Assembly (NCBI GenBank): GCA_016874055.1
Contig: VGVG01000002.1
Location: 1 to 64,000 of the forward strand
Length of the DNA: 64,000 nucleotides
Direction: 5' to 3'
DNA from: Gammaproteobacteria bacterium
Lineage (GTDB): Bacteria > Pseudomonadota > Gammaproteobacteria > Steroidobacterales > Steroidobacteraceae
The notes under the pieces were generated by a model. It was not told the DNA's origin, ran no database searches, and was given only the letters and a program-made list of their open reading frames with translations. Both the position numbers and the translations under genes were made by a program. Every line of letters starts with the position of its first letter. Positions within the stretch are counted from its first letter, which is position 1. Below are positions 34,514 through 57,676 of this stretch, piece after piece.

Positions 34514-35800
34514 TCAGCGTGCACCGAGCACAGACATCCACTTAACGAATCGCCTTTGATCGAAGGCGTTGTCATCACGCAAATCATCGAATAGCCGGTC
34601 GATCTCCGCACGCTTACCACGATCGAGCTGCAAGCCTGCAAGCATTACAACGAGACCCATCGCCGCTTGCTCGGCGGCTGCCGGATCGGGGAATCCACCC
34701 CGTCGAGACGCGTCGATGAGCGCTTGGACAACAGCGTTCATCTCAGCGGCACTCCAACTGCGCCCTTTCAGCTCTCTCTCCGTCACAAGCAGCGCGTCAC
34801 GAGTGGTCGCAAGGGCCTTCTTTAACGAGGCCATATCACCATTCGCCGAACGCTGTAATCCAATGATCGCTCGATGAAGCGGCCTCGAAGACTCCAACCG
34901 AAGAGCTTGAGATACCTGTTGAAGGACGAGCAGATGAGCGTCCTGCCATCGAAGGTCGCCCGGCCCGCCAAGCGAATAGCTCGAACCCCCGAACGCGGAC
35001 AGTCGAAGATCTCGATGGCAGGAATGACAGGCGTAGATGCCGAAATCCGGAATGGGACCAAGTCGTCCGGCGCCGTGACGGTCGATCAGGTCAAGTTGCC
35101 GACGCGAGGATTCGATTAGTCCCTTGGCCCATAGGGCAGCATGCGCCGTCTGAGCACTCTTTCGATAATGCTCCCGCCCACCACTGGTGCGCCAAAGTTC
35201 AAGATAAGTATCGAGCTCAAAGACAATTCGCGGGTGTCCGGCAGCCATCATTCGATGATTCGCATAGCGATCCTTGTCGCCGACATGACACGCGAGGCAG
35301 GTCACCGCGAGCGTATCTGGATTCTCTAGTGCGACGAGCCCTCGGGCCAGATTCTCACTTCGCGAAATCTTCGGCACCTGATAGTGGGTCGACAGCCACT
35401 TTTCTGACCCGCCGTGACAACTCTCGCATCCCACCCCGTCATCCAGTTGGAATTTAACGCCTCGCTGCGCGGCAGGTATGGCATCCGAATGACAGACAAG
35501 ACACGCCGGCGCTTCATGTGCAGGGCCAATACCCATTCGACGAGCAATTTCTTGAGACTGTTTATTGAATAATACCTTGTATGCGTTGGAATGCAGATCG
35601 AATTGCGACCAAGTCGTATATTCGTTCTGGAGGACGCTCTCATAAGCCTTGAGTGGTTGGCTCGAACCGTGACACAGCGATGAGGCGCAGGTGGCAACGC
35701 CCTCATGACGACGCTTGGCCTCATCTGCCACCGCGCCGATCGCGGACACCACAGCAAGACCCAAGGCTGCCCACTTCAAATGGATAGTCTTAAAACTCAT
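34514..35800 (-). CDS. Periplasmic pentaheme cytochrome c (c554-like)
   Basis: A 428-residue exported protein (signal peptide ending near AIGAVA) with one CX4CH site (CASSLCH) and four CXXCH sites (CLVCH, CESCH, CLACH, CHSCH). The spacing of the first sites and the CHG context recall the cytochrome c554/NrfB-like fold used for periplasmic electron transfer. The C-terminal third has no heme motif. The start ATG overlaps the upstream decaheme gene stop by four bases. It is probably a shuttle within the electron-transfer operon. No catalytic Lys-ligated CXXCK site is present. Confidence 0.85.
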   Translation of the reverse strand: MSFKTIHLKWAALGLAVVSAIGAVADEAKRRHEGVATCASSLCHGSSQPLKAYESVLQNEYTTWSQFDLHSNAYKVLFNKQSQEIARRMGIGPAHEAPACLVCHSDAIPAAQRGVKFQLDDGVGCESCHGGSEKWLSTHYQVPKISRSENLARGLVALENPDTLAVTCLACHVGDKDRYANHRMMAAGHPRIVFELDTYLELWRTSGGREHYRKSAQTAHAALWAKGLIESSRRQLDLIDRHGAGRLGPIPDFGIYACHSCHRDLRLSAFGGSSYSLGGPGDLRWQDAHLLVLQQVSQALRLESSRPLHRAIIGLQRSANGDMASLKKALATTRDALLVTERELKGRSWSAAEMNAVVQALIDASRRGGFPDPAAAEQAAMGLVVMLAGLQLDRGKRAEIDRLFDDLRDDNAFDQRRFVKWMSVLGAR

Positions 35801-38800
35801 CTTAAATTCCTCTGAGCCTGCTGCACGGCTGGGTTGTCCTCGACGTACCAGGGTTCGCCATCCTTATTGAGATACATTCGCTGCATCTCCTGTAGGTTGA
35901 ACGGACGCGAACCCCGGCGACCAAACACGGCGACTTGACCGCCGCTTTCGTCCACCGCCCGATCGCGCTCCAATGGCCGGGACAGACTCAGCGCAGCCGA
36001 TCTTGTCGCCTTATGGGCGATCAACTCCGGTCGCGGCTCCGGACTGAACCCGTAGAAATTTGGCTGCGAAGAGGGACTCGTCAGCTGCACGACTTTCAAT
36101 CCACCCTTACCGTCCGCCACGTAGGCAAAAAGAGAAGCATTGGTCGACGCAATCATCACGTCCCGGGAGTCGACAAGATTCCCGTCGGCGCTCCATTTCC
36201 GGAACAAGCGCGCAGCATGCGGTCTCTTTACGTCGATGATGGCCAGGCCTTCACGCCCATTGGCGACGTAAGCGTAGGTCCTTGCGACGGTGAAACCCCC
36301 TGCACTATTCAGCGGTACCGTCGCGTATGACAGCTTGCGCGGGCGCGACGGCGTCGTAATGTCGACCACCTCGAATCCTCGCGCCGTCGTCACAAAGAGA
36401 TAACGGAACTGAAGGGCAACGGCACGCGGCGAGTCGAAAGGGATCTCCGAAACAATCTTTGGCAGACTCGGAGTAGACAAGTCTGTAATGACAACCGACT
36501 TGTCCGTGACGACGTAAGCCAGATTCCCGGCAATGGTCAAATGTCGAGCGCCGGTCAGCTTCCCGCTCGGATTCCATGTCAAGAAGCGCCGCAGGAAATT
36601 ATTCCTGAACTCACCATCGGCCAACGTGTTGATATCAACCAGCACAAGCCCTTCAACCGAGTCGGTAATTACGGCGAAGCTATAGATCGGCAGGAAAGGC
36701 TGCTCCAGATTTGCCTTACGCATGAGATCGCCCTCATTGCGCGGCGGGTGCACAGGTTGAGTGGTCGCTAACGCAACGCACGTGGCATTGGTCGTGCGCA
36801 CCTGGGTGTTGTGTCCAAGAGGCGAGAACGGTGCACTGATCAACTTCTGGCTGATGCCTTTATTGGCGATGCTCGCTGCATCCAACACACGCATACCGCG
36901 TTTTCCCTCGGCAGAGAAAACATATTCGCCTCGCAATTGCACGCAGCCGGCAAGTCCGCCGCTCAACGCGCTGGTGCGCTGTAACTCGCGGTCCCGCCCG
37001 AGATGATCGGCGTACCACTTGGGATAGGTGTAGCGATGAAGGTAACTACCGATGACGGCTTGCGGCTCGTCCCACTCCGTCACCTCGATTGCAGCGACGC
37101 CCTTCTCCGTGCCGACCCAAGCGTTGAGACCATTAAAATTGATGAATTGGGTACCGAATCCCAGTGTCTGCGCGATGATCGCGTTGTTATCTCCCTCTTT
37201 AGCGAGATGACAGTCACTGCAGGTCTTCGTTTCCGTTTTGCGCTCGGTGTGCGGATAGTGCGGATTCATTGCCTGCGAGCTATAGCCCGACGCGGCGATC
37301 GGCGGCTGCTGGATGTAAATACGCTCGCGGTTGGAGTTGGTCGAAGACAATACGAGGGCCGACGACGAGCGTACCGGCGCCATCTTTCCTCCTTCACTCG
37401 CCCCGCGCCAACCAAGCATGAAAATGTCTTCACGCAAGACCTGTGGATTGTAGGTCGCAAAATTACGTGTCTCACCGCCCTCGTAACGATGGCGCTCCGT
37501 CTTCGCATTCGCCTCGATCGGCAAATGGCAACCGCCGCAACTTGTCGTCCATGGCGTGTGACAGGTGTAGCACTCCATTTTATCGTCGTTGTGCGCAAGC
37601 ATCTCCCACGGAATATCCGGTCCGAAGTTTTGCTTTTTGGAATCCTTCTCCATCGTCTTGGCCCGCGCAGCCTTCGCGTTGTAGTGCGCGTTACCAGGCG
37701 TCACCGTGTCCTTAACCTGCGACACCTCCCACTCGAGACCGGCCGTCACCGCTGATCTTTGAATCAGCGTATTCCCACGCCACTCGAAGCGAAGCTTGCC
37801 ATCAGGGTTACGAATAAGACCCAGATTAGTTCCAGACTTCGGCGCTGCGGGTCCGGATGTTCTTAGATTGGCAACAGCCGCTGTCGTACCGTGACAGTCC
37901 TTACAGTCAATCTCGACGGCTGCGGCAACAGAGCCGTGCAGATAGCCATTACCATGCGAATCCTGCGCGAAGTGACAGTCAACGCAGTGCATTCCGACAT
38001 CCACGTGAATCGAAGACATCTGCACCGTCTTCTCCCACTTCTGCGGGTCGTCGTTAGCGATGATGTTGCCGTCGGCATCGAGCAGATTGCCTTCGCGGTC
38101 ACGCTTGTGAATCGCCCGGAAATTCCACCCGTGCCCGTGATAGTCCGCGAACTGGGTATCCTTCAACTTCGGATTGAGTTCGCTGACAGTCTTGAGAAAC
38201 TCAAGATCCCCCCACTTCCCACGCGGCGCAGCGCCCTCCGGATTACGATCGAGTACCTGTCGGATTTTCTCCGGCGCCGGGAATTGCTGCTCCTCCGGCC
38301 ACATGTGGGGAGCATCTGACTCGTAATCCCACATCGTGTAGCCGAGGAACGAGTTGATAAACATGTTTGGCTGGTGCATGTGACAAATCATGCACTGGCT
38401 CGTTGGGATCGACCGCGTAAATGAGTGAGCTAACGGATGCCCGCTGCGATCTTTCGGAATCGTAGGATCTACAGTCTGCGATTTTCCGTCGTGCCCAAAT
38501 TGCGCGTAAGGACCCGAGTGTCTTGGATCGCGATCGTTCGCGTACACCACATGACAGCTCGTACAACCCGATGATCGGAAATCGCCAGGGTTATCGTTAG
38601 TACCCATGAACCACATCAACGGATCGTTCAAGCGGGTTTTGTGGATATTGAGCACCGGTACCGCAATCCGACCACCGGTGCCGGGACCGCGATTTGACTG
38701 CTTGAAGTCAGGGCGACCCGGCTCTTCGAGACGCTGTATTTGACCCAAAGAATTAGGGATACCCGTTTCGGGGAATAGGTTGGTGATGTTGCGTCCACCG

Positions 38801-39564
38801 CGCTCGAAGGCGCGGAAGATATCGGCGGGCGGCAGGTTCTCCCAACGCGGCAACGGGTAGATTCGTTCGACGAGCTCATGCTTCTCGCGTTGCTCAGCCG
38901 TTGTCTTCGCCCCTTCGAGGATCGCCGCGACACCCTCTTTGGTGTAGCTCTCACCGAGAATGTAGTTCTTGAAAGGAAGTAAGCCATTGTTATAGGCCGC
39001 TCCGCCCCAGAACATCGTGGCGGTCGCCATCAAACTACGCTTGGCATCTTCGATGGTGCGGGCGTGACACGCGCCACACGCTGCATCGGCGGCGCGGTAG
39101 TCGCCAGGATTGACGAACCGGATGAACTCGTTCGCCTCTTTGTTCAACAAGGCGTAGGCACGCTCTGGGTTGGCACTCGATGGGTGATCCCACGCAGACG
39201 GATGCTTAGGCAACACATGAGCCGTATCGCGTACCTCGGCGTACTTTCGGTTGTTCCGTTGCGTGTCGCGATCATCCGGGCCAATCCAACGCACATTGGC
39301 CGAACCGCCGTGACAATCCGTGCAACCGAGTACGACACCCGGATTGGCATGCATGGTCGGCTGATCGGTCTTAGTGTGGCAGTCGTTACACCCCACACTC
39401 TTCGCAGCCGCCTCCTCCAAAGTCTGCTTCGCAGGTGCAGGCGGTGAGACCACGTAAAACCGCTCGACTGCCTTGAGACCTTCCGCCGAGGTCGCGAAAT
39501 CGACCGAGCCCGGCAAAAGCATCAGTCCGGATAACGTGAAGATTGACGCGACGAGCTTTTTCAT
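35797..39564 (-). CDS. Decaheme cytochrome c with C-terminal LVIVD-type beta-propeller
   Basis: A 1255-residue exported protein (signal peptide MKKLVASIFTLSGLMLLPG). Ten CXXCH motifs are spread over the first two thirds (CNDCH, CTDCH, CGACH, CTSCH, CMICH, CVDCH, CKDCH, CYTCH, CGGCH, CSDCH). The last 400 residues contain repeats such as NLAYVVTDKSVVITDLSTPS and YAYVANGREGLAIIDV, the LVIVD repeat pattern of a beta-propeller. Such a fusion suggests a large electron-transfer protein with a partner-binding or surface domain. It starts 11 bases after the beta-barrel gene and overlaps the pentaheme gene by four bases. The family as a whole is not one I can name. Confidence 0.85.
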   Translation of the reverse strand: MKKLVASIFTLSGLMLLPGSVDFATSAEGLKAVERFYVVSPPAPAKQTLEEAAAKSVGCNDCHTKTDQPTMHANPGVVLGCTDCHGGSANVRWIGPDDRDTQRNNRKYAEVRDTAHVLPKHPSAWDHPSSANPERAYALLNKEANEFIRFVNPGDYRAADAACGACHARTIEDAKRSLMATATMFWGGAAYNNGLLPFKNYILGESYTKEGVAAILEGAKTTAEQREKHELVERIYPLPRWENLPPADIFRAFERGGRNITNLFPETGIPNSLGQIQRLEEPGRPDFKQSNRGPGTGGRIAVPVLNIHKTRLNDPLMWFMGTNDNPGDFRSSGCTSCHVVYANDRDPRHSGPYAQFGHDGKSQTVDPTIPKDRSGHPLAHSFTRSIPTSQCMICHMHQPNMFINSFLGYTMWDYESDAPHMWPEEQQFPAPEKIRQVLDRNPEGAAPRGKWGDLEFLKTVSELNPKLKDTQFADYHGHGWNFRAIHKRDREGNLLDADGNIIANDDPQKWEKTVQMSSIHVDVGMHCVDCHFAQDSHGNGYLHGSVAAAVEIDCKDCHGTTAAVANLRTSGPAAPKSGTNLGLIRNPDGKLRFEWRGNTLIQRSAVTAGLEWEVSQVKDTVTPGNAHYNAKAARAKTMEKDSKKQNFGPDIPWEMLAHNDDKMECYTCHTPWTTSCGGCHLPIEANAKTERHRYEGGETRNFATYNPQVLREDIFMLGWRGASEGGKMAPVRSSSALVLSSTNSNRERIYIQQPPIAASGYSSQAMNPHYPHTERKTETKTCSDCHLAKEGDNNAIIAQTLGFGTQFINFNGLNAWVGTEKGVAAIEVTEWDEPQAVIGSYLHRYTYPKWYADHLGRDRELQRTSALSGGLAGCVQLRGEYVFSAEGKRGMRVLDAASIANKGISQKLISAPFSPLGHNTQVRTTNATCVALATTQPVHPPRNEGDLMRKANLEQPFLPIYSFAVITDSVEGLVLVDINTLADGEFRNNFLRRFLTWNPSGKLTGARHLTIAGNLAYVVTDKSVVITDLSTPSLPKIVSEIPFDSPRAVALQFRYLFVTTARGFEVVDITTPSRPRKLSYATVPLNSAGGFTVARTYAYVANGREGLAIIDVKRPHAARLFRKWSADGNLVDSRDVMIASTNASLFAYVADGKGGLKVVQLTSPSSQPNFYGFSPEPRPELIAHKATRSAALSLSRPLERDRAVDESGGQVAVFGRRGSRPFNLQEMQRMYLNKDGEPWYVEDNPAVQQAQRNLR

Positions 39565-39575
39565 GGGTTCGATAA

Positions 39576-41345
39576 TCAGTAAGTAAGTACGAGATTGCCA
39601 AGAACGGCGTAAGCGATGTCGTCTTCAAAGAGGTCGCGATAACCGTCCCCCGGCACCAAAGTGGCGACGGATAATCGACCCACGACGTTTTGAATGGCCG
39701 TCGGTCGCCAAATCACCGCGATCGAGGCATCTAGACCAATGTCCTTGGCGATATCCCCTTGCGCACGCGCAACCCGTAAGGTTGCCGTATCGACGAATTG
39801 TAACCAGTTGACGTTGGTGCTCACCCGCAAGGTTGGCGTCAGATCAAAGTCAGCTCCAACACCAATAAGCCTCAGCCCCGGATTCGCGAAATTCGACTGG
39901 CCAAACTCCTTAGAAGATCTCAGCGAGTTTAGCAACCCGTTACGCCCGGTCAATGTCACACGTCCACCACCAATCAGCGGAACGGGCTCACGTATCCAAA
40001 AGCTGGTATCCGCACCAGCAAAGAGAGGATTTTCGAATATCGCGTCAAATCCCTCGCCTCGATCATCAAACGGATCTGAATCCGCAGATCCCCACGCGAG
40101 CGAAGCGCGAGCGCGGATCCACGAGAAATCCTTTGAGATCTCGGCTGCCAGAAATCCTGCTCGAATCTTTTGCGGGCGATCGATGAAGGTGCCGCGCTCG
40201 GCATCTCCAGTCGCGTAGTACGCGGAAGTCGTGAGGTTAACTCCGGCGATATGACCGTCACCGGAGACACCGAGATAAGTGACATCGTAATCACCCGATC
40301 GCTCGACACCGAGCGATACAGGTCGCTGAATGATGCCGTTGTCATCGTACTGAATTTGCCCGCCTTCGCGATTGCGGTTATGGATCACCGTGCCTTGGGT
40401 GAAAAATCCTAGAGTCGGCCAGTCTTGTACATAAAGGTTGGCGACGAAGACATCATCGTCTCGAAACGATGCGAGACCTCGAGAGAACACATCATTCAGA
40501 CCGCTATTTGTGTCTTTGTCGAGGCGACGGAACCACGCAAGGTTGTATTGATGACGATTGCTTGATCGGATACCAAATAGACGCGCACCAAACATCGCAT
40601 CATTGAGCAAAAAGCCACGGAAGTCGGAGGTGAAGGGCTGTATCCCGACACGGAGACTGTCGAAGTCGTAGTTGGGCGACACATTTCGCAAATGGCGATC
40701 GACGAACGCGGCCTGCAAGCCAAACGCCGAGTCGTAGCGAACCTTGGACGCATCTGCGGGCGCACGCAGCAAGCCACGCTCGTCAGCAGAGACTCGCGTC
40801 ACGTTAAATGCTGGCGTGAATCGGAACTCCCAATCGGGCGGTTTGAACGTTGTGTTGCCCTGGTAGAGCACGGTCTCAAGAATGAAGGTCTGCGCCAAGA
40901 TCTCCGTCTTCGGACTGCCAAACGTATTCAGAGATCCCGGTCTGGCCGTAACGGGACCACCGACCGGCAGAGGAAACGAACGCGGTTCAAAGACTGAATC
41001 GGAAATCCCGATGAAAGCCAAGTACCAGTCTTCTCCGAACATGGGTCGATCGCCCTTCAAGCGATTGAAGCCATTGTAGGGATCGAGCAAGTTTTCTTTG
41101 ATGCCAATCGCCTCAACGATACGCCATCGATCCGGGAACCCTTGTAGAGATCCCATCTCTTCTATCGGAGCTGGGGAAATTCGCGTTGGATCACAAGGTT
41201 CCGGCTCATACGGGATAACTGGGATCGTAGGACTACGACGACCCGACTCGGTCGGCTGCGAAGGCGGACATGCCTCGTTCGCGAGAGCGGATCCCGCAAG
41301 GACCCATCCGAGCAGCGCGGGTAACCATGTTCGATCAAAGACCAC
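39576..41345 (-). CDS. Outer-membrane beta-barrel protein of the cytochrome cluster
   Basis: A 589-residue protein with a signal peptide (VLAGSALANEACPP), a proline-rich N-terminal segment with two Cys, then many alternating strands with aromatic girdle residues, ending in VLGNLVLTY, a C-terminal aromatic residue as in outer-membrane barrels. It is about the size of MtrB/PioB barrels but I see no clear sequence match. GTG 41345 is the start, with AGGAG eight bases before; it overlaps the lipoprotein gene by 11 bases. Position between a lipoprotein and a decaheme cytochrome suggests a porin-cytochrome conduit, which is inference. Confidence 0.7.
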   Translation of the reverse strand: MVFDRTWLPALLGWVLAGSALANEACPPSQPTESGRRSPTIPVIPYEPEPCDPTRISPAPIEEMGSLQGFPDRWRIVEAIGIKENLLDPYNGFNRLKGDRPMFGEDWYLAFIGISDSVFEPRSFPLPVGGPVTARPGSLNTFGSPKTEILAQTFILETVLYQGNTTFKPPDWEFRFTPAFNVTRVSADERGLLRAPADASKVRYDSAFGLQAAFVDRHLRNVSPNYDFDSLRVGIQPFTSDFRGFLLNDAMFGARLFGIRSSNRHQYNLAWFRRLDKDTNSGLNDVFSRGLASFRDDDVFVANLYVQDWPTLGFFTQGTVIHNRNREGGQIQYDDNGIIQRPVSLGVERSGDYDVTYLGVSGDGHIAGVNLTTSAYYATGDAERGTFIDRPQKIRAGFLAAEISKDFSWIRARASLAWGSADSDPFDDRGEGFDAIFENPLFAGADTSFWIREPVPLIGGGRVTLTGRNGLLNSLRSSKEFGQSNFANPGLRLIGVGADFDLTPTLRVSTNVNWLQFVDTATLRVARAQGDIAKDIGLDASIAVIWRPTAIQNVVGRLSVATLVPGDGYRDLFEDDIAYAVLGNLVLTY

Positions 41346-43332
41346 TGCAGGGCTCCTGTTCGTTGGAGTCCAGGAACGGCGCTTGCGGACAGCTTAAGTA
41401 GCGCAGGCGAGCACCACTAGGAACCAATTGATCAGCTCGACGATTCGAGGGCGCATGCTGAGGCGGGTTACCGGACAAACCGGCACGCGCGACGCCAAGG
41501 AAAGCGACCATGTCATCCTGATCGATACCGTCCCCAGAAACCCCGATCGCACCGATCAGCTGTTCACCGCGATAGATCGGTACAGCACCAGGAAAAATTT
41601 GTATGCCATTGGCTAGACCTCGAACGGCACCATTTACGACAAAGCCGCGATCGAAACCGCCCACTCCGCTGCAATTACGTGGGGTATCCGGCGTCAAACC
41701 TCGAACGAATGCGACGTGCTGAATGACAGCGTTATGAACGAGATCCAGTTGTAATCCCGTATTGAGCGGGCTCCACTGTCCCGGCGCTCGAGAGAGCGGA
41801 CCAAATGGGTTGCCATCAACACCGTCCGGGTAATTCGGGCGTGCGAGATTGCCAATCGCGCGAGCGGAAAATGCAGTCATCCCATCCGCCAAGGCATTTG
41901 GCAAGCCAAGGAAGATACGCATGGAGGTGACATACTGCGCCGGCGACTCTTCTCGCAAACGCACCAAGACGCGATCGAGATAGACGGCCGGAGGAAGCGC
42001 ATTCAGACTCTCTACCGATGTACGCGAAGACAAAAACGCTGCGCCGCGCGCCTTCTGTACTGACACATCGATACCGAACACGGGCGCGTCGCGAGTTCGC
42101 ACGAGCCCCAAAATTTCGCCCTGCGAATCAACCACGGTGATCGAGACACGCGCCGGTGTATCGAGCGGGCGTCGTATCTGCGCTCGACTTCGATTCGCAA
42201 CTCGCAAGGCACTCGAGAGGATTGATCGCACCTCGGCGGATGTCAGCGCCGCAGCACCGTCAGTGCCCGCGCGCGGACGAAAACGCTCGTTGTCCGCCGC
42301 ATCAACCAGAACGAATGCATCAAGATTGGCGTAGTCCTGACTATCGGCCCGAATACCGGAGCGTGACTGTCCAAAAGCCGTTCCCGCTCTGATCGCTGCA
42401 ACGTTGTAGCCAGGCACCGCAACGAGCTGCCCAACGCTACCAAGAAGCGAGGCGAACGCCGGTGGCGAGTCGATTCTGGAGCGCAGGTCCTCGACGCGAA
42501 AATCGCTGAACCTTAAGGTCTTGCCATCGGCAGTAATCCGATCTGCGCGACGATCCTCCGGCGCAGCCTGCGAGCCCGTGGCGGCAAAGGCCACCGCCTC
42601 GTCGACATCGTTATCGACATCAAGGACGTCACGATCAATGCCATAAACAGGATCGATGACTACCCCTACTCCACCGACCGGCGTACCTGATCGATAGAGA
42701 GGGAATCCGCCCGGGTCGCCCGCAAGTCCGAGAGGCGATCGCTTCGGACCGATATCAGCCTCAGCAGGCGTGAAACGCGCCGCAACATCCGAGCACGGCA
42801 GCTGACTGAACTGGACACCAAACAACGGACCGCCCGGGGTCAGCAGTTCACCAGGATTAAAATGCGATTGGATGATTTGACTGGCGGTTCGAGTGCTGAA
42901 GGCATTACCTTCACTCGAGAGATAGGCGCCCGTGACGGCCTTCGCAATCGCAGCCGCCGTCGCCGGAATCACTTCGACGTTTTCAAGGCCTCCGCTCAGC
43001 GCGGACGCCGAAACGTCACTGGTACGCATCGTGACGTCAGCGAGCGCGCCAGACATGCGGAACACCGCAAGCACATTACCGACCCGATCGACCACAGCAA
43101 TGGTTGCCTTGACACCCCTCGCCTGCGCCTCGGCAACACCTCGTGCGATCACGGATTCAACATCACTGACGGTCAGGAAAGAGTTGGCGTCCGCGCAGCT
43201 ACCGTCACAGGAAGCCGTACTGGAGGGTGAAACAGCGCTGCCACTCGCTCCAGAGCTCGGCGTCTCCGAGCCACCACCGCCACACGATGCGACCAATGCG
43301 GCGCAGAGTGCCATCAACCCCAAGCGTCTCAT
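41335..43332 (-). CDS. Lipoprotein with two GlcG/HbpS-like heme-binding domains
   Basis: A 665-residue lipoprotein: from ATG 43332 the signal LGLMALCAALVASCGGGG has lipobox VASC. Two GlcG/HbpS (PF03928-like) units are visible: SVIARGVAEAQARGVKATIA followed by VVDRVGNVLAVFRM, and LTSAEVRSILSSALRVANRS followed by ITVVDSQGEILGLVRT, each continued by segments such as GEQLIGAIGVSGDGIDQDD. HbpS-type domains bind heme or redox ligands, and standalone copies are about 140-190 residues. The start overlaps the FHA-decaheme stop by four bases (ATGA). The role in the cluster is unknown; heme or substrate binding at the membrane surface is plausible. Confidence 0.75.
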   Translation of the reverse strand: MRRLGLMALCAALVASCGGGGSETPSSGASGSAVSPSSTASCDGSCADANSFLTVSDVESVIARGVAEAQARGVKATIAVVDRVGNVLAVFRMSGALADVTMRTSDVSASALSGGLENVEVIPATAAAIAKAVTGAYLSSEGNAFSTRTASQIIQSHFNPGELLTPGGPLFGVQFSQLPCSDVAARFTPAEADIGPKRSPLGLAGDPGGFPLYRSGTPVGGVGVVIDPVYGIDRDVLDVDNDVDEAVAFAATGSQAAPEDRRADRITADGKTLRFSDFRVEDLRSRIDSPPAFASLLGSVGQLVAVPGYNVAAIRAGTAFGQSRSGIRADSQDYANLDAFVLVDAADNERFRPRAGTDGAAALTSAEVRSILSSALRVANRSRAQIRRPLDTPARVSITVVDSQGEILGLVRTRDAPVFGIDVSVQKARGAAFLSSRTSVESLNALPPAVYLDRVLVRLREESPAQYVTSMRIFLGLPNALADGMTAFSARAIGNLARPNYPDGVDGNPFGPLSRAPGQWSPLNTGLQLDLVHNAVIQHVAFVRGLTPDTPRNCSGVGGFDRGFVVNGAVRGLANGIQIFPGAVPIYRGEQLIGAIGVSGDGIDQDDMVAFLGVARAGLSGNPPQHAPSNRRADQLVPSGARLRYLSCPQAPFLDSNEQEPCSGL

Positions 43333-45044
43333 TGGCTTACCGCTGCCTCTCGAATCACCTTCTTCATGACGGGGATCCACAGCGGCTCTTGCTTATCGTG
43401 ATAAACGTGGCACGACGCGCAAGGGCTTGCGATACGAGCCTGTCCACCCTCGGTGCCGGTCTCACCGCCATGGCAGTCACGACATACTTTGATCTGCGGC
43501 ATCAAAACGTCACTGGCGACTTTCGCATCCGCCGCGGCGTGACAGGTTTCGCACGTAGCCTCTCCCGTCGCGTGCGCGGCATGATCAAATCGCGCTTTGG
43601 GCATGAACGTTTGCGTCAACTTGACGGGCGCGACGCTCCACAGAGGTTCTGTGGGCGTACCTTCGCGAGTGACGGTATGGCAATCCGCGCACATCCGACG
43701 CTCGAAGATATCCGCCGCCACCTGATTCGCGCGCTGTGTGGCACTTCCGAGCACGCGAGCGCGGGCTGCCGCGCTGAGAGATGCGCCGGGCGGCGTCACG
43801 CCATCGGCGGCCGCGACAGCATCGCTATAACCGCCGAGAAAACGCCGACTGTAATGATCGATCAGCGTCTGTATGACAAGTGCCGGCTCGCCATGCGGCA
43901 CCGTACGCTTCGGCTCCGCTGGATCGAAACCCAACGTGTGGCATGAGCCGCAATGCTGCTCCATCTCAATTGGCTTGAAGCTCGTACCACTCTCTGTCGG
44001 CGTGTGGCAATCGGCACACTCCATGACAACTTCGCCCTGCGGAGCCTTGATACCTTTCGGATTGAGGTGAGCAGCATGGGTAAATTCAAGATTCGATTTT
44101 TCAACGATTTCTGATTCGCCTAGGCGGGCCCGCGTCACTTTCCAATCCGGCGCCGTCAGCAAACTGATCTGAAAATCCGGATGCTGAGAAACGAAATCCG
44201 TCACCGGCAGCGCTTTTGGTCGAGCGCCATGACTCTGGGGTTCAGCATGGCAATCAGAGCAAATTCGCGTGTCGAGCTGGATAAGATTCGACGGTTCATC
44301 ATGCTCGACGTGACAGGTCGTGCAACGATCGGCGGTCATATTTGCCGCAGCAGGATGATCCGCAGGCACGTGCTGATGAAGGGTATTCGCGTGACAATCT
44401 AGGCATTGCTCATTGCGAACTCGGCGGAACGGTTGCTCATGACAGGCCTCGCAGGCAACCTCGAGGTTACCGTGCGCAGAATGCAACGCCCCGGAAGTCC
44501 ACTGCATATCGCTCGGTAAAACACTCTGTCGTAACCATTCGATGGACGCATCGCCGCGACCCACCATGAGCCAGGGCAAAACGAGCCCGAGCACGAGGGA
44601 GACACTGATCCCCGCCCATGCCCATGGACGCTTTCGCCAACCCACTTCGGCGAGAGACATCGAAAACTTTGGAAGCGGTCCGTCCTCGACAGCAACACTT
44701 TCGCGGACATCTCGCTCGATTGTCAGGGTCACGTCATAGCCGACGGGATTTTCGACAACTTTGATCAGCGACGGACCGAGCGAAATTTCGTCACCAACTT
44801 TCAATATGGCGCTACGTTGCAACCGCCCGTTGATCTCGACCTGTGCAGGGGGCGTACACGTGAGTTGCAGCTCGCTCCCAGATCGACTCAGACGTGCATG
44901 CTGTAAGTCGATTCGCGGATCGTTGATCTGGATGTTCTGATCAGTGGCTCGCCCGATGGATAGCGAATCGCTCTCGAGCGCCCTCTCCTGCGTACGCAGG
45001 GCACCCGCTTTTTCCGTCTCAAGAGAACGAATTAAGATCCGCAT
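43329..45044 (-). CDS. FHA domain-transmembrane-decaheme cytochrome c fusion
   Basis: From ATG 45044 the product has 571 residues. Residues 20-90 form a forkhead-associated domain (LSIGRATDQNIQINDPRIDL then QHARL, and later EINGRL): the Gly-Arg, His and Asn-Gly landmarks are present, but the usual phosphothreonine-contact Ser is Asp here. A single membrane helix follows (about 141-162). The periplasmic part has ten CXXCH motifs (CEACH, CLDCH, CTTCH, CSDCH, CADCH, CGSCH, CADCH, CETCH, CRDCH, CASCH). The topology puts a signalling domain in the cytoplasm and a multiheme wire in the periplasm. It is four bases after the cytochrome b gene. Confidence 0.88.
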   Translation of the reverse strand: MRILIRSLETEKAGALRTQERALESDSLSIGRATDQNIQINDPRIDLQHARLSRSGSELQLTCTPPAQVEINGRLQRSAILKVGDEISLGPSLIKVVENPVGYDVTLTIERDVRESVAVEDGPLPKFSMSLAEVGWRKRPWAWAGISVSLVLGLVLPWLMVGRGDASIEWLRQSVLPSDMQWTSGALHSAHGNLEVACEACHEQPFRRVRNEQCLDCHANTLHQHVPADHPAAANMTADRCTTCHVEHDEPSNLIQLDTRICSDCHAEPQSHGARPKALPVTDFVSQHPDFQISLLTAPDWKVTRARLGESEIVEKSNLEFTHAAHLNPKGIKAPQGEVVMECADCHTPTESGTSFKPIEMEQHCGSCHTLGFDPAEPKRTVPHGEPALVIQTLIDHYSRRFLGGYSDAVAAADGVTPPGASLSAAARARVLGSATQRANQVAADIFERRMCADCHTVTREGTPTEPLWSVAPVKLTQTFMPKARFDHAAHATGEATCETCHAAADAKVASDVLMPQIKVCRDCHGGETGTEGGQARIASPCASCHVYHDKQEPLWIPVMKKVIREAAVSQ

Positions 45045-45048
45045 CGGA

Positions 45049-45927
45049 TTACCAGTAGAGGAACACACTCACGACGTGCGCGACGAGTGTTCCGAGCAAA
45101 GCCAAGGTTACAGGCACATGTATGTACAGCCAGATATCGAGCCAACCTCTAATCTGCGCATCTCTACACAGCCGACGCAGTAAATTTCTCCGCTCAGCCA
45201 ATAGGCTCAGCAGATCACCAATGCGTCGACTGAGCTCACCATCCGTACTGCGTGCAAGCTCGTCCCCGAGCCAAGTCAGAGCTGCAGACTGTCCGCTATT
45301 TGGCGAGCTAACGGCTCCTTTATTCGAGGGAACCATCAACACCGAACTATCCCGGCCGGCCAGGATGTTACGCGTACTACCACCGAGCGCGGTGCCGTCA
45401 CGATTGGCACGCAAGAGATCAGCGAATCGCCGTGGCATGCCGCGTGCGATACGCAACGCGCGCTGGTCGATGTCCTGAATTTCCTCGAGCAGACGATCAG
45501 GCTTGCTACCGGCGCGATTTGCCGACATCAGCTGGGGGTAACGCTGGTAGGCCACCACCCCGACGATTCCGCTGGCGATCACGATGACCATCAGTGCATA
45601 ACAAAGCGTGTGCAGATTCCAACCGAACTGGAATCCGCTGTGCAATGTTGAGATCAACAGAAGCGAGAGACCGAGATAAACGTGTGCGCTGGTCCAACCC
45701 CGCAGGGTGCCCATCGCCGATGAATACGACCGCTTTCTAATTCCCAGTGCGGTCAACCACAAGATGAGCGCGGCACCGATGCCACCGAGTGTGTATCCGA
45801 GCCAAGTGCCACCGTTGGGTGGTGATAGAGGGTCGTGCCAGACATACAGCGCGACGGAGATACCGCAGAGCCACAGGGACACTCGGAGATAACGTCGATT
45901 CGCATGATTAAGCAGTGACTCGTACAT
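45049..45927 (-). CDS. Membrane b-type cytochrome-like protein
   Basis: From ATG 45927 (two bases after the stop of the Fe-S gene) the product has 292 residues with five likely membrane helices: four in the first 150 residues and one at the C-terminus (IWLYIHVPVTLALLGTLVAH). His residues near both ends of the third helix (AHVYLGLSLLLISTLHSGF, then LH) and the His pair in the last helix fit two bis-His b hemes. A soluble segment of about 120 residues separates helices 4 and 5. It probably passes electrons from the Fe-S protein to the decaheme protein or the quinone pool. No named family recognised. Confidence 0.75.
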   Translation of the reverse strand: MYESLLNHANRRYLRVSLWLCGISVALYVWHDPLSPPNGGTWLGYTLGGIGAALILWLTALGIRKRSYSSAMGTLRGWTSAHVYLGLSLLLISTLHSGFQFGWNLHTLCYALMVIVIASGIVGVVAYQRYPQLMSANRAGSKPDRLLEEIQDIDQRALRIARGMPRRFADLLRANRDGTALGGSTRNILAGRDSSVLMVPSNKGAVSSPNSGQSAALTWLGDELARSTDGELSRRIGDLLSLLAERRNLLRRLCRDAQIRGWLDIWLYIHVPVTLALLGTLVAHVVSVFLYW

Positions 45928-45929
45928 GC

Positions 45930-48377
45930 TTAGAAACGCGAAGCCTCCTGCTTCACGAATGTCACAAACTCCTCCGGGTTGACACGTAGTGCCGCACCCG
46001 TCGGACACGCGCGAACGCATGCGGGTCCACCATCCTGACCCTTGCACATGTCGCACTTGACAGCTTTCTTGACGGCCTTCGGCGCGTCGATCGCGGCAGG
46101 CTCATGATGATGCGAGCGACCGAGCCCCTGCAACTTGCTATAAACGCTCTCTTTGCTCCCGCCGAACATCAGCCAAGACATCAGCGAGGGCTGCTCGGGC
46201 GGCGGTCCCGACATGTGAATCACGCCATAAGGGCAATTACGCTCGCAGTTTCCACAGCCTATGCAATTATCGCCGACAAATACCTCACCATTCGGTGAGC
46301 GGCGAATCGCATCTGGCGGGCAGTCCTTCATGCAATGCGGATCTTCGCAGTGGCGACAAGACGTCGGCACATGAACGTTGGCAAACGTCGGACCGGCTGC
46401 GCGATCAAGGCGAGAGGTGCCGCCATGAGTGGCCGCACAAGCGCGCTCACAGTTATCGCATCCGACACATAGGGTTTCATCAATCAGCAATACGTCGGTG
46501 GCCTCACCCAGCCCTTGCTTCAGAAGAAACGAAATCAATTCGCCTGCGTGGTCCTGCCCCTGCAGATGAGTATTGCTTGCCACGCGCTGTCGAACGGTCT
46601 CTTCCAGCTCTTGTCGCAAGCGAGGGTTTTTCTGGAGCAGTTCGCCGAACGTCGCAGCATTGAGACTGATGGTCTCGGTGGCTACCGTCGCTCGCACCGT
46701 CGCACTACGCTGCGTGTTACCGAGCAGCCCCATTTCGCCGACATAGTTGCCGGCGGCTACGTACGAGGTCACCACCTCTCTTCCACCAATCGATCGCAAC
46801 ACCGATACAGAGCCACTTCGAATGAGGTGTAACGAATCAGCCTCATCACCCTCTGTAAACAAAACTTGCCCCGCCCGAAAGCGGTTGAGCTTCGAGTTGG
46901 CAGCAATTGGCAGTAACTCATCGGTGGCCGCTTGCGGCGCAAATCCACTCTGAATCGCGCGTACTATAAAGGTATGGTCGACGACGGCTTTGGCAGCGTC
47001 GACTGAACTCAATAACTTCAATACGTCGCGGCGTGGCGTCTCGATCAGTACACAGTCTCGCCCAGCAAGCGCTGTAGCGGTACGTCGACGACCCGAAAGC
47101 AACCCCATTTCACCGAAGAATTGCCCAGTCGAAAGCACCACGCGCTTAGCAGGATCATTTTCGTCGACTTGTATTTCGACGCTGCCGCTGAATATTGTGT
47201 AGAACGAGTTGGTGTAATCGTTTCTTTTAAACACCACCTCGCCTGCCTTCGGAACATGAACGCTGCTGCCGAGCATCAGCTCGCGAAACATCAGCGGATT
47301 TACCTCCGCAAAAATCGGTATCCGCGCTTGCATACTCTGCAGCGTCGCGGTGACTGAAAGATGCCCGAGAATTCCCGCGAGCTTCGACTGAAGCAAGGGT
47401 TCGTCAGCTGGAGTGACGGGCGTGCCACGAATGTACTCAACCACCTCGTAGCCTTGATTCATCGCCTGCTTGATGAGCGGATATCCACCAAGAGCACCGA
47501 TGACGTACAGCCCGGCGACATTGGATTCGTAATTGGCCGACAGCAAAGGCAGTGAGGTCGGATCGCTTGAGGGAAATTTGATTCTGCAGGACTCGACAAA
47601 CTTACGCGGCGGAATAGCACCGAGACGAGCGATGATTCGATCGCAGGGCAACTGCATCTGTCCATTAGCAGTCGTCAACGACAACTCGTACGGTTTAGCA
47701 CCCTCCGGCGTCTCGACGAGCGAGCTGCACTGCGTCGAATAGAGGCAGTTGACCTTTCCCGCCTCGATTGTTTTCAGGATGAGCGTCAAGTTGCCGTCCT
47801 TGCAACGTGCGAACTCCCCCGCCCGGTTTATCAGATACACCGTGTTCTGTTTCGAGAGAGCCACCGCGTTCTCGATTGCCGCATCACCCGCACCGACGAC
47901 GACGATCGTCTCGCCCTGATACTCCTCCGGGTCATCCAGCGTGTACTGCACGCATGGCAAAGATTCCCCGGGAACTCCGAGACGCCTAGGATTACCTTGC
48001 AATCCAATGCCAAGGATGACGTTCTCGGCGAGAACTTCACTGCCATCTTGCAGCTTGAGATGGAAGTCCCCTTTCTCCCCGGAGATCGCTACAACCTCAG
48101 CGCCGTAACGAACGTTAACGTTCTGCGCGGCAAGACCACGGGCCCACTCATCGAGAATTTTTTCTCGAGTGCCGGCAGCGAAGGCGAGTGGACTACGCAG
48201 CGGCAGCACATTCGGCTCGGCCATCACGTGCTTGCCTTTCTGATATCGCTGGATCGTGTTGGCATGAGCAGCGGTTTGCTCGAGCAGCACGTGCGACACG
48301 CCGATCCCCGCAGCGCGGGCCGCAGCGCTCAAGCCGCCCGGACCCGAACCGACGACGGCAATGACAACCTTGGTCAT
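45930..48377 (-). CDS. FAD oxidoreductase-double cNMP-binding-four [4Fe-4S] ferredoxin fusion
   Basis: An 815-residue cytoplasmic protein with three modules. Residues 1-320 form a two-dinucleotide-fold flavoprotein (VVGSGPGGLSAAARAAG for FAD; IVVVGAGDAAIENAVAL for NAD(P)H), YpdA/thioredoxin-reductase-like but without a CxxC active site. Two cyclic nucleotide-binding domains follow (about 350-480, with GQFFGEMGLLSGRRRTATA; about 490-610, with GNYVGEMGLLGNTQRSATV), each with the phosphate-binding GEMGLL-R-A cassette. The last 180 residues hold 16 Cys in four ferredoxin motifs (CVGCDNCERAC, CRHCEDPHCMKDC, CIGCGNCERNC, CDMCKGQDGGPACVRAC), as in HybA/DmsB. It is the first gene of the cytochrome operon and the probable electron entry point. 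Confidence 0.9.
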   Translation of the reverse strand: MTKVVIAVVGSGPGGLSAAARAAGIGVSHVLLEQTAAHANTIQRYQKGKHVMAEPNVLPLRSPLAFAAGTREKILDEWARGLAAQNVNVRYGAEVVAISGEKGDFHLKLQDGSEVLAENVILGIGLQGNPRRLGVPGESLPCVQYTLDDPEEYQGETIVVVGAGDAAIENAVALSKQNTVYLINRAGEFARCKDGNLTLILKTIEAGKVNCLYSTQCSSLVETPEGAKPYELSLTTANGQMQLPCDRIIARLGAIPPRKFVESCRIKFPSSDPTSLPLLSANYESNVAGLYVIGALGGYPLIKQAMNQGYEVVEYIRGTPVTPADEPLLQSKLAGILGHLSVTATLQSMQARIPIFAEVNPLMFRELMLGSSVHVPKAGEVVFKRNDYTNSFYTIFSGSVEIQVDENDPAKRVVLSTGQFFGEMGLLSGRRRTATALAGRDCVLIETPRRDVLKLLSSVDAAKAVVDHTFIVRAIQSGFAPQAATDELLPIAANSKLNRFRAGQVLFTEGDEADSLHLIRSGSVSVLRSIGGREVVTSYVAAGNYVGEMGLLGNTQRSATVRATVATETISLNAATFGELLQKNPRLRQELEETVRQRVASNTHLQGQDHAGELISFLLKQGLGEATDVLLIDETLCVGCDNCERACAATHGGTSRLDRAAGPTFANVHVPTSCRHCEDPHCMKDCPPDAIRRSPNGEVFVGDNCIGCGNCERNCPYGVIHMSGPPPEQPSLMSWLMFGGSKESVYSKLQGLGRSHHHEPAAIDAPKAVKKAVKCDMCKGQDGGPACVRACPTGAALRVNPEEFVTFVKQEASRF

Positions 48378-48381
48378 GACC

Positions 48382-49188
48382 TCACCCGCCGTCCGCGAAC
48401 TCCGGATAAAGAGTCATTCCACCGCAGACGAAAATGGTTTGACCATTCACGTAATCGGAATCATCCGATGCCAGCCAAACCGCCGCTTTGCCGATATCGC
48501 TGGGCTGTCCGACTCGGCCATAAGGGATAAGCTCGAGCAACTTGGCGAGGGCCTCGGGCGTCTCCCAGGCAGGGCGATTGATTGGAGTGGCGATCGCACC
48601 GGGACCAATAGAATTCACCCGTATTTTGAGCGGCGCGACTTCCTGCGAGAGACTTTGCATGAAAAGTTTGACGCCACCCTTGGAGGCCGCGTAATTGACG
48701 TGACCCGCCCAAGGGATGACCTCGTGTACCGAGGACATGCAGATCACTTTACCGGCAGCAGCCGAGACTCCGGACTGAACGCCACGCTTCATCATTTCTC
48801 GGACGGCGCGGCGGCTGCAGAGAAACATTCCGGTCAAATTCACATTGATGACTTTATTCCATTGAGCCAAGGTCATTTCATGGAACGGCGCGTCCTGCTG
48901 CAAACCCGCGTTATTCACGAGAATGTCGATAGCGCCCCACTCGCCCATCATTTTGTCGAACATCGCCTCGACTTGAGCTTCATCCGAAACGTCTGCCTGT
49001 ACCGCGATGGCGCGACCGCCGGCTGCCTTAATGGCCTCGATAACAGGCACGGTACCAGCCACATTGCCAACGTAGTTGACCACCACGTCAGCACCGGCTT
49101 GACCTAGGGCGATCGCCACGCCCGCGCCGATGCCTGAACTTGCGCCGGTAACCAGCGCCTTTTGACCCTTGAGCGGTTTGTAAGACAT
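48382..49188 (-). CDS. SDR-family glucose 1-dehydrogenase
   Basis: A 268-residue short-chain dehydrogenase. NAD(P) loop TGASSGIGAGVAIALGQAGA, NNAG motif (LVNNAGLQQDAPF), catalytic Ser in CMSSVHEVIPW and YxxxK in HVNYAASKGGVKLF. The overall pattern (HEVIPWAGHVNYAASKGG, LIPYGRVGQPSDIGKA) matches bacterial glucose 1-dehydrogenases, which oxidise glucose to gluconolactone. ATG 49188 has AGGAG nine bases before; the longer frame upstream overlaps the glucosidase gene. It follows the glucosidase by 32 bases, so the two may release and then oxidise glucose. It ends just before the Fe-S fusion gene. Confidence 0.88.
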   Translation of the reverse strand: MSYKPLKGQKALVTGASSGIGAGVAIALGQAGADVVVNYVGNVAGTVPVIEAIKAAGGRAIAVQADVSDEAQVEAMFDKMMGEWGAIDILVNNAGLQQDAPFHEMTLAQWNKVINVNLTGMFLCSRRAVREMMKRGVQSGVSAAAGKVICMSSVHEVIPWAGHVNYAASKGGVKLFMQSLSQEVAPLKIRVNSIGPGAIATPINRPAWETPEALAKLLELIPYGRVGQPSDIGKAAVWLASDDSDYVNGQTIFVCGGMTLYPEFADGG

Positions 49189-52454: not shown

Positions 52455-52538
52455 GTCCAATTGTGGCTTGCTAACAATTGCTCCGAAATGAAATGAGTGC
52501 AATACACGCACGATAAAAACAGGACCGCGAGGGAGTGA

Positions 52539-55308: not shown

Positions 55309-56577
55309 ATGCCGCGTGTTTCATCCTGTCGACCCCAAGTTGAACGCGCGCTCTCATGTATCGCGCCACAGATCGATCGTCGGCACATTGATAACCTGAC
55401 ACTGCTGATCGATTCGTCGATGCAAGGTCAAACGAGGCACTATCACACCCTGAGCCACGCGCTGCTGGTTGCGGATTCGGACGATGTGCTCGATATCCTT
55501 ATCGGCCTATGCCACGACATCGTGCAGGTTGACGTCGACGGTGGACTGCCAGCTGCCGCGGAGCCTTGGCTGGCCGGCCTCGTACGATCAGACGATCGTG
55601 TCCATTTCACTCTCGTCGACGACGCGCAGACTCGAGCTGACCAAACCTTCGGAATCGTCAAAGCAATTTTCAATCTACAGCCGGGGCAACTCTTGCCCGA
55701 TTTCGGTGGCAAGAATGAATTCTTGAGCGCGATGGTCGCCTGCAGGATCCTCGAGCGCGCAGTCGATCCATCGACGATCGCCGCCCTGGCGGTCGGGATC
55801 GAAGCCACGATCCCCTTTCGCAAAGATCCAGATGGTATCGCGCAACGCACCTTGGGCGCGCTCGAGGACATCGACCGACGTTATGGAATCGGCTTTTCTA
55901 ATGAGCAGAGTCGCGATTACCTTCGTCGCTCCGTGCGCGTCGCCAATCGCGACGTAGGCAGCTTCGCCAGTGAGAATCTTCCCGCGTTTTTAGATGACAC
56001 ATGGAACTTGATGCGCGAGAGCTCGGCCGACTTGCGCAGAGATCGCCCAGTCAAAATCGACACCTACCGACTCATTATTCAAAAAATGACGCGTTTTTTG
56101 GGCTCGCTTCAAGCTGAGAACGTCTTTCGATGCTTTGACGATGAGCCAAGTGCGCACCAATTCCCGCACATCCTCTCGTCTACATCTGAAAATCTTTCTA
56201 TCATCTCGGCAGTGATGCAGACCAAACTGCTCGCAGTCGCACTAATCGAGACCGCGACGGCGGATATAACAACCGCACACCTCAGTCCTCGAATTACTTC
56301 GAGGTCTGCCGCGCCGAGATCGATCACTCACGCACGAACGGTGGAATCGATTCTCGCGATAGGAAAGGACTCCTCTGCGGAGTTCGACATCGATCGATCT
56401 CCTTTATCCCATCGAGTCATCTCGACGATGTCGGCAGCCGAGATCAAAGAACTGACAAATGAAGTTTCGGACCGAACACCGATCAGTAAAACATTACTAA
56501 CCCGGGTGCCCGCTGAACTTGCAAAGCAGGCAAAAGAACTGGTGGATCTGATGATCACACCGTGTCGAGACGATTAA
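55309..56577 (+). CDS. HD-superfamily-like protein of unknown function
   Basis: A 422-residue protein. Residues 40-75 have the spacing of an HD phosphohydrolase metal site: TRHYHTLSHALLV followed by IGLCHDIVQV. Later segments (residues 100-200) are helical with charged residues. The C-terminal 130 residues look like a separate, Ser/Thr-rich helical region. HD proteins often cleave nucleotides or cyclic nucleotides, but key downstream ligands are not obvious. It follows glgA by 47 bases and overlaps the convergent cyclase gene by four, suggesting a linked role in nucleotide signalling; this is inference. Confidence 0.5.
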   Translation: MPRVSSCRPQVERALSCIAPQIDRRHIDNLTLLIDSSMQGQTRHYHTLSHALLVADSDDVLDILIGLCHDIVQVDVDGGLPAAAEPWLAGLVRSDDRVHFTLVDDAQTRADQTFGIVKAIFNLQPGQLLPDFGGKNEFLSAMVACRILERAVDPSTIAALAVGIEATIPFRKDPDGIAQRTLGALEDIDRRYGIGFSNEQSRDYLRRSVRVANRDVGSFASENLPAFLDDTWNLMRESSADLRRDRPVKIDTYRLIIQKMTRFLGSLQAENVFRCFDDEPSAHQFPHILSSTSENLSIISAVMQTKLLAVALIETATADITTAHLSPRITSRSAAPRSITHARTVESILAIGKDSSAEFDIDRSPLSHRVISTMSAAEIKELTNEVSDRTPISKTLLTRVPAELAKQAKELVDLMITPCRDD

Positions 56578-57647: not shown

Positions 57648-57676
57648 TAGAGGCCTTGCTTGCCGCAATAAAAAGT

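Follow-up and report, generated by a model that had tools for sequence, protein, structure and literature searches.

A conserved seven-gene multiheme cluster in Steroidobacteraceae and other proteobacteria: a candidate NAD(P)H-fed, cyclic-nucleotide-gated route for electron export

We analysed a stretch of 64,000 nucleotides (hereafter the window; contig VGVG01000002.1 of assembly GCA_016874055.1, positions 1 to 64,000) from a gammaproteobacterium of the family Steroidobacteraceae. Seven adjoining genes on its minus strand, here named g1 to g7, occupy positions 34514-48377, and a reading made from the letters alone had proposed that they encode a trans-envelope electron conduit with built-in signalling domains. 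Our results show that these genes form a conserved set in which cofactor motifs and heme-ligand residues are maintained, and that genes for nucleotide cyclases and NADP-dependent dehydrogenases adjoin the set in part of the loci. In our judgement the chances are even that the cluster encodes an electron export pathway that is fed by NAD(P)H, gated by cyclic nucleotides and runs across the cell envelope.

In the proposed pathway NADPH, in preference to NADH, would reduce the FAD of g1, from which electrons would travel by way of four [4Fe-4S] clusters to g2, the diheme cytochrome b, and hence across the inner membrane to the membrane-anchored decaheme protein g3. The pentaheme g7 would shuttle them from g3 through the periplasm to g6, g5 and g4, assembled at the outer membrane, and these would deliver them to an acceptor on or beyond the cell surface. 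The flow would be switched when the two cyclic-nucleotide-binding (cNMP) domains of g1 bind cAMP, or a nucleotide akin to it, supplied by a cyclase encoded nearby. The acceptor could perhaps be Fe(III), Mn(IV) or some other oxidant that, as a guess, takes up electrons when oxygen is low, and in the genus of the window the fuel could perhaps be stored glycogen, entering through the adjoining glucose dehydrogenase. We also put forward, tentatively and with more doubt than belief, the bolder statement that the cluster is an envelope-spanning NADPH:extracellular-acceptor oxidoreductase of about 25 c-hemes, two b-hemes, four [4Fe-4S] clusters and FAD, switched by cAMP at its NADPH end, and that it would constitute a new class of pathway.

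The seven open reading frames (ORFs) lie as first described, every junction being an overlap or a gap of at most 11 bases. With the conserved starts used here (ATG 45927 for g2, ATG 45044 for g3, ATG 43332 for g4 and GTG 41345 for g5), g1/g2, g2/g3 and g5/g6 are separated by 2, 4 and 11 bases, and g3/g4, g4/g5 and g6/g7 overlap by 4, 11 and 4 bases; residues are numbered from the longest ORFs, which start at 46056 for g2 and at 45068 for g3. The estimate of about 25 c-type heme motifs was borne out by ten in g3, ten in g6 and five in g7 (4 CxxCH and 1 CX4CH), 25 in all. Indeed, 24 of the 26 CxxCH motifs in the six frames of the window fall inside the seven genes. These counts are kept in the complete ORFs of relatives: ten CxxCH in 75/78 g3 and 94/94 g6 proteins, and the 4+1 arrangement in 65/65 g7 proteins.

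A scan with the g6 alignment, using one genome per species, yielded at least 594 stretches, 591 of these being confirmed, and the best 80 were kept. By their titles these 80 belong to Gamma-, Alpha- and Betaproteobacteria, their g6 being 59-93% identical to the window's copy, and the hosts among them include Parahaliea maris, P. mediterranea, Haliea sp. E1-2-M8, Pseudoteredinibacter isoporae, Steroidobacter agaridevorans, S. gossypii, Limnobacter alexandrii and Oceanibacterium hippocampi. Among the 80, the 57 loci that extend 9 kb or more upstream of g6 were searched for co-occurrence; g1-g6 were present in 53 of 57, in the order 1-2-3-4-5-6 in 49; g1 follows g7 in three of the 57, and g4 is missing from two (L054 and L075; loci are numbered L, genomes G). 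Where enough downstream DNA was available, g7 was present in 37 of 54 loci. In 15 fetched relatives the gene order is kept as far as the stretch reaches: L017, L018 and L022 end before the set is complete, several others end inside g7, and in L011 g6 and g7 are not next to g5, its g6 lying on another contig. At an E value of 0.001, g3 was found in 25/60 relatives, and in 17/24 within the genus; in three of the 25 (G025, G032 and G050) the matches are weak and partial only. Chance co-location was rejected, and order, co-presence and motif counts across loci support the proposal of a co-conserved seven-part electron chain.

The subunits appear to fall into two blocks. Across 35 loci, and uncorrected for species kinship, pairwise distances correlate at r 0.92-0.94 within g1-g2-g3, at 0.88-0.91 within g5-g6-g7 and at 0.79-0.87 between these blocks, those of g4 correlating at 0.81-0.89 with all other subunits. 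L140, L141 and L146 either are Sphingobium or fall with it in the g6 tree, and in them g7-g4-g5-g6 and g1-g2-g3 lie on opposite strands; in L139 all genes point in one direction, and the other named alphaproteobacterial loci mostly show the 1-6 order. In a sample of the phylum, g6 matches above 1,100 bits occurred in 11 genomes out of 398 (the window's and 10 others; any match, 22), and in a sample of the order matches above 800 bits occurred in 22 of 196 (any match, 30). The system is also carried by plasmids: among 17 plasmid records with a match, 13 (12 from Sphingobium, 1 from Sphingopyxis) span 80% or more of g6, and the two g6-bearing plasmids examined were both typed conjugative. The Sphingobium plasmid record uses generic product names, for example 'multiheme c-type cytochrome' and 'cyclic nucleotide-binding domain-containing protein'. 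On the Sphingobium plasmid (L146:580-14689) g7-g4-g5-g6 is preceded by CHAT, CHASE2 and two-partner-secretion genes and by a gene for a 2092-residue protein lacking a Pfam match.

At the cytoplasmic end, g1 (45930..48377; 815 residues) reads as an FAD/NAD(P) reductase kin to Bdr/YpdA and ferredoxin-NADP reductase, joined to two cNMP domains and a HycB-like part. Pfam matches it to Pyr_redox, to cNMP in two stretches and to Fer4, and PDB profiles match it to Bdr/YpdA (5.1e-32), HycB3 (3.8e-25) and the cNMP domains of PKA/PKG. Sixteen cysteines are invariant in 46/46 rows, which is enough for four [4Fe-4S] clusters, and the glycine motifs of both nucleotide sites are kept in 46/46. A glutamate and an arginine of the phosphate-binding cassette are the hallmark of a cNMP-binding domain; in g1 they are E423 (45/46) and R432 (46/46) in one pocket and E548 (36/46) and R557 (46/46) in the other, and both pockets appear intact. 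No invariant or nearly invariant cysteine occurs before residue 637. Because no conserved, redox-active cysteine in the N-terminal part precedes those of the iron-sulfur clusters, a role of g1 as a thioredoxin or bacillithiol disulfide reductase was rejected.

The next protein, g2 (45049..45927; 292 residues from the conserved ATG), gave no Pfam family above cut-off and no convincing relative in a PDB profile search. Its residues H125/H139 and H313/H327 are invariant in 37/37 rows, each pair 14 apart, a spacing that falls within the 13-14 of diheme cytochromes b and points to a diheme b-type membrane cytochrome; H149 is invariant too. A simple hydropathy scan flags residues 86-106, 151-169 and 308-332, covering the second histidine pair but not the stretch of H125/H139. 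In g3 (43329..45044) Pfam recognizes an FHA domain and a class III/C7 cytochrome, and the hydropathy scan a hydrophobic segment at 152-170, the probable single transmembrane helix. Its ten CxxCH motifs are accompanied by exactly ten further invariant histidines in 46 rows (one motif histidine at 98%), so that all its hemes can be bis-histidine ligated, as in a pure wire. This transmembrane segment, together with the hydrophobic N-terminus of g7, leads us to place the heme part of g3 and the whole of g7 in the periplasm.

The FHA domain of g3 had been counted among the signalling modules. Domains of this kind that read phosphothreonine carry the motif G-R ... S-x-x-H ... N-G; g3 keeps G39 in 46/46 rows, R40 in 39/46, the histidine in 36/46 and N80 in 36/46, and the pattern G-R..S-x-x-[HYQ] in 3/46. 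A phosphothreonine reader was rejected since the contact serine is missing from 44/46 rows, and for the same reason we take the domain to be a docking or structural one. The idea of built-in signalling is supported in one part, by the intact cNMP pockets and the cyclic-nucleotide genes beside part of the loci, and not supported in the other, the FHA domain as a phosphothreonine reader.

Three elements make up an outer-membrane conduit as set out in passages of PMC6148476: a periplasmic multiheme c cytochrome, an integral outer-membrane beta protein and an outer-membrane lipoprotein with a redox cofactor. The first is found in g3 and in g7 (34514..35800), whose motifs and ligands are invariant; g7 matches Cytochrome_C554 (PF13435), and its five motif histidines and five further ones are kept in 42/42 rows. 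A candidate for the third is g4 (41335..43332), a putative lipoprotein in which Pfam finds the HbpS-like PF03928 in three stretches, repeating an HbpS/GlcG-like domain, and 29 of 38 relatives show a loosely defined lipobox. The second corresponds to g5 (39576..41345), by prediction. This protein gave no Pfam family at E 0.1 and no convincing relative in a PDB profile search; across its family, Alginate_exp was found in 3/46 members at E 0.01 and MtrB_PioB in none. Its AlphaFold (AF2) model (predicted local distance difference test score, pLDDT, 81; predicted template modelling score 0.80) has 18 strands of at least 10 residues by manual count. The best structural match is AlgE (Foldseek 2.5e-18; VIA Z 28.3, root-mean-square deviation 2.9, 361 aligned), followed by OccK/OccD porins. 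The model and the AlgE match agree with the barrel originally proposed for g5, and we regard it as a predicted AlgE/OprD-like outer-membrane barrel. MtrB was not among the structural matches listed, which is no proof against an MtrB fold.

The largest heme protein, g6 (35797..39564; 1255 residues), matches a cytochrome and LVIVD in Pfam and appears to consist of a decaheme domain at about 30-800 and an LVIVD propeller at about 800-1180. Of all subunits it is the best conserved, with a mean identity of 66% across 35 loci. It holds 13 invariant non-motif histidines for its ten hemes (12 in the heme part and H854 in the propeller part), a larger number than bis-histidine ligation of ten hemes would require, as against 10 for ten hemes in g3 and 5 for five in g7. 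A PDB profile search gave no convincing relative, and no known reductase active site was matched in Pfam, NCBIfam or PDB profiles. Its model is weak in the heme part, with a mean pLDDT of 65 and values below 50 in stretches that include 199-305, 626-674 and 694-742 of the trimmed protein. As a consequence, the matches listed by Foldseek are propellers and other non-heme folds, and heme ligation is unreadable.

Among the systems compared, the nearest parallel is the ext cluster of Geobacter, extHIJKLMNOPQS, which encodes the porin ExtI, the pentaheme ExtKL, the 12-heme ExtM, the 10-heme ExtN and the cytochrome b ExtP; in G. sulfurreducens extI is tied to selenite and tellurite reduction, and normal reduction of Fe(III) to extHIJKL (PMC5877670, PMC6148476). 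As far as those descriptions go, both are conserved clusters with a porin, a pentaheme, an ExtM-type multiheme protein and a b-type cytochrome. They differ in that no Rieske protein or rhodanese was matched in g1-g7, and in the NAD(P)H/FAD site, four iron-sulfur clusters and cNMP domains of g1, the FHA domain of g3 and the propeller of g6. The window's g6 scores 65 bits against the ExtM equivalog NF040943 (cut-off 800) and 25-26 bits against those of ExtN and ExtO (cut-off 200). Two 12-heme proteins from another class of the same phylum are 26-27% identical to g6, keep all ten of its heme sites and reach 227-232 bits against NF040943. These intermediate scores suggest that g6 is a far relative of ExtM to which a propeller was added. 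These 12-heme ExtM-like cytochromes are encoded at L143:9047-11431 and L144:8168-10738, where the rest of the cluster was not seen in the 20 kb read.

MtrCAB, PioAB and MtoAB are porin-cytochrome conduits (PMC8805035), and on the portion of that source considered they share with g1-g7 the combination of decaheme cytochromes and an outer-membrane barrel in one operon, with probable trans-envelope flow. In contrast to MtrCAB, the inner end here consists of an NAD(P)H site and a cytochrome b, not of a quinol dehydrogenase such as CymA. Kinship with Mtr or Pio, which the sequence-only reading had invoked, does not hold at the sequence level, and the best structural matches of the barrel are AlgE/OprD-type porins. 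Sequence does not place g5 with the MtrB/PioB barrel (PF11854). Against MtrA/DmsE (TIGR03508, cut-off 192.2) g3 scores 27 bits, g7 16.5 and relatives of g7 24-26; against OmcA/MtrC (TIGR03507, cut-off 209.3) g7 scores 12.3 bits and g6 is not listed; and against the Pfam MtrC domains II/IV (cut-off 30) g7 reaches 20 and g6 16.3 bits. Membership of the Mtr family was rejected on these tests of g3, g5, g6 and g7. Within the genus, MtrB_PioB occurs in 1/24 genomes (G012), which has no g3 match. The Uet system of Tenderia and Gallionella comprises an undecaheme, a tetraheme and three triheme cytochromes, a peptidylprolyl isomerase and NHL-repeat proteins (PMC10734462). Judged by passages of that description, Uet also combines a predicted barrel with a multi-subunit multiheme conduit, with NHL repeats where g6 has its propeller, and is set apart by the NAD(P)H/cNMP subunit of g1-g7. 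Among the papers listed by full-text searches of open PubMed Central articles, none was seen to describe this gene set, and literature searches turned up no known conduit with FHA or cNMP modules.

In an alternative explanation there is no conduit to the outside: g6 would act in the periplasm as an NADPH-fed multiheme reductase whose substrate, a small soluble oxidant (an oxyanion, a nitro compound or an N-oxide), enters through the porin g5. The AlgE/OprD-like model of g5, the distant relation of g6 to a protein of the selenite/tellurite cluster, and the conservation of g6, whose 13 non-motif histidines leave room for a catalytic or metal site, are all consistent with this. On the other hand, a 1255-residue propeller protein with a lipoprotein and a barrel in fixed synteny would be a heavy design for such a task, and no known reductase active site was matched. 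Because of the type of barrel and the ExtM kinship we retain this explanation as an unlikely one that still deserves attention. Homologues encoding a known soluble-substrate respiratory enzyme, which according to the first reading would speak against a conduit, were not found outright, but g6 is distantly related to ExtM of the selenite/tellurite cluster.

Export from NADPH is suggested by genes found near the cluster. An NADP-specific glutamate dehydrogenase was present in 11/104 loci (L012, L050, L053, L061, L065, L075, L082, L137, L138, L142 and L147). At a background density of 25 genes in 44 Mb, the 0.7-0.8 Mb of flanking DNA would be expected to contain about 0.4. It underwent at least seven state changes on the g6 tree (102 rows), and the family was confirmed in 6/6 cases checked. 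In 10/10 genomes, chosen for having the neighbour, the best glutamate dehydrogenase match of the genome was the one beside the cluster. In the window, the glucose dehydrogenase gene that ends 4 bases before g1 points the same way. We favour the outward direction because of such NAD(P)-linked neighbours, and because no coupling site for an uphill push is visible.

The same chain could run inward, g6 oxidizing outer donors and passing electrons through g7 and g3 to the cytochrome b and on to NAD(P)+ at g1 or to the respiratory chain. Heme wires are reversible, one member of the family is from a Haliea metagenome-assembled genome (MAG) titled Biocath_Gamma_022 (L035), and COX1 is present in 23/24 genus genomes, so a terminal oxidase is usually there. 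The window's own genome assembly has none, which is probably due to incompleteness given those 23. For ordinary donors, however, reducing NAD(P)+ by way of a bare cytochrome b is uphill, and no coupling site for it is visible. Furthermore, some of the neighbours are NAD(P)-linked dehydrogenases, and the named hosts are, we presume, heterotrophs, which we also count against uptake. We regard this direction as improbable, somewhat more so than a soluble-oxidant reductase.

Cyclic-nucleotide genes found near the cluster are in favour of a gated export pathway. The window's genome assembly has a single class III nucleotide cyclase (56574..57668, minus strand; its sole PF00211 match), 8.2 kb from g1, with orthologs near the cluster in L148, L149 and L151. 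Outside the genus, 5/5 genomes of the order with a full g3 carry a cyclase of the CHASE2 type no more than about 5 kb away from the cluster, that of L014 being interrupted by the contig end. In L012-L014 the order cyclase-TPR-FecR-g1 is codirectional; FecR touches or nearly touches g1 in L013 and L014, and the glutamate dehydrogenase stands between them in L012. FecR genes were found near the cluster in 10/104 loci. In L139, L140, L141 and L146 g3 is adjoined by a metallophosphoesterase gene, and genes for cyclases or CHASE2 proteins lie close by.

Other signalling genes also gather around the cluster: PP2C phosphatases near 26 of 102 loci, FHA-only proteins near 23 and kinases near 4 (families checked on examples), and the FHA-only neighbours keep the FHA motif in 6/6 inspected. 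In the background, PP2C_2 genes number 41 in 66 Mb and CHASE2 genes 28 in 41 Mb, from which about 0.5 of each would be predicted in a flank of 0.72 Mb. The window's own genome assembly (83.65% complete) has no Pkinase (PF00069). On the g6 tree the phosphatase module shows at least six state changes and the cyclase module at least ten, four loci having hits of both. That the complex merely senses the envelope redox state with few electrons, read out through its cNMP and FHA domains and through these phosphatase, FHA-only, kinase and (in 15 of 102 loci) cyclase or CHASE2 genes, is very improbable, since the core FHA domain lacks the phosphothreonine-contact serine and the heme sites are kept across loci in which the phosphatase and cyclase modules are variously present or absent.

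Several observations weigh against the export pathway. Cyclase or CHASE2 matches were seen in only 15/102 loci in the stretch read, four of them weak. In the genus a cyclase shares the contig of g3 in 6/17 g3-positive genomes, many of whose contigs are short; in 10/17 the cyclases are solely on other contigs (G016 has 11, none near), and the g3-positive G022 has none. In NCBIfam the phosphoesterase of L139 best matches an enzyme acting on 2',3'-cyclic nucleotides, at 141 bits against a cut-off of 400. Glutamate and glucose dehydrogenases accompany a minority of loci, and glutamate dehydrogenase may use rather than make NADPH. The FHA domain of g3 is degenerate, with the contact serine, at -3 of the histidine, in only 2/46 rows. 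The AlgE-like g5 suits a porin as well as a conduit: MtrA is held in a 26-strand barrel sheath, and since g5 resembles the 18-strand AlgE/OprD porins instead, a heme wire through it is not obvious. Finally, the set is not always entire. No g7 was seen beside the cluster in 17/54 loci, L052 and L104 hold g4-g6 with g1-g3 not nearby, g1-g3 were not seen in the stretch read of L138, L142 and L147, g6 lies apart from g1-g5 in G034, and g1 of L018 reads in two overlapping frames.

To our knowledge, outer-membrane conduits have been studied mostly in metal-respiring and iron-oxidizing bacteria, where they exchange electrons with the quinone pool. If the export pathway is real, an NADPH-fed, cyclic-nucleotide-switched, conduit-like system would be widespread in other proteobacteria and also borne on plasmids, its hosts including Parahaliea, Haliea, Steroidobacter, Limnobacter, Sphingobium and MAGs with titles that point to lake water. 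It would link second-messenger signalling to extracellular electron flow within one enzyme, and on the bolder, less probable statement aerobic bacteria could dump electrons from NADPH (for example from stored glycogen or glutamate) outside on a second-messenger signal. Cultured, named environmental strains carry the system, which makes it testable now.

In the genus loci read (L148-L151) the cluster is part of a glycogen island, which comprises cyclases, an HD-like protein, glgA, glgC, an aquaporin with a cNMP domain, a glycosidase, a short-chain dehydrogenase/reductase (SDR) and g1 to g7; in the window, glgB additionally follows g7. The SDR (48382..49188, minus strand; likely start 49188, longest ORF 49269) belongs to the glucose 1-dehydrogenase subfamily (NF005559, 223.6 bits, cut-off 215; NF006493, 298 bits, below the cut-off of 420) and occupies the matching position in other genus loci. 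It ends 4 bases before g1, and the branching enzyme gene glgB (32303..34507, minus strand; NF003811, 939 bits) lies 3-6 bases beyond g7. The seven genes had been called an operon, and they are indeed tightly joined, but the run also includes these two. Given their tight spacing on the same strand, the unit transcribed in this genome probably extends beyond the seven genes. Upstream of the SDR is an MGH1/GH63-like glycosidase (49221..51896, minus strand; PF22422, PF03200), which is conserved in genus loci.

The protein encoded beside the cyclase at 55309..56577 on the plus strand has no Pfam match and, by eye, an HD-like motif; it also occurs near cyclases in other genus loci and is 34% identical to the product of L018:3014-4531, which lies between a cyclase and g1. 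It may represent an undescribed type of nucleotide phosphodiesterase. A fusion of an aquaporin (MIP) and a cNMP-binding domain is encoded upstream of the cluster in four genus genomes (L016:1276-2436, which is L149:6775-7935 and in which the domains were read, L148:12785-13969, L150:12779-13915 and L151:10960-12144). In the window a remnant of this fusion is visible at 52084-52470, as a 38-residue match with 68% identity.

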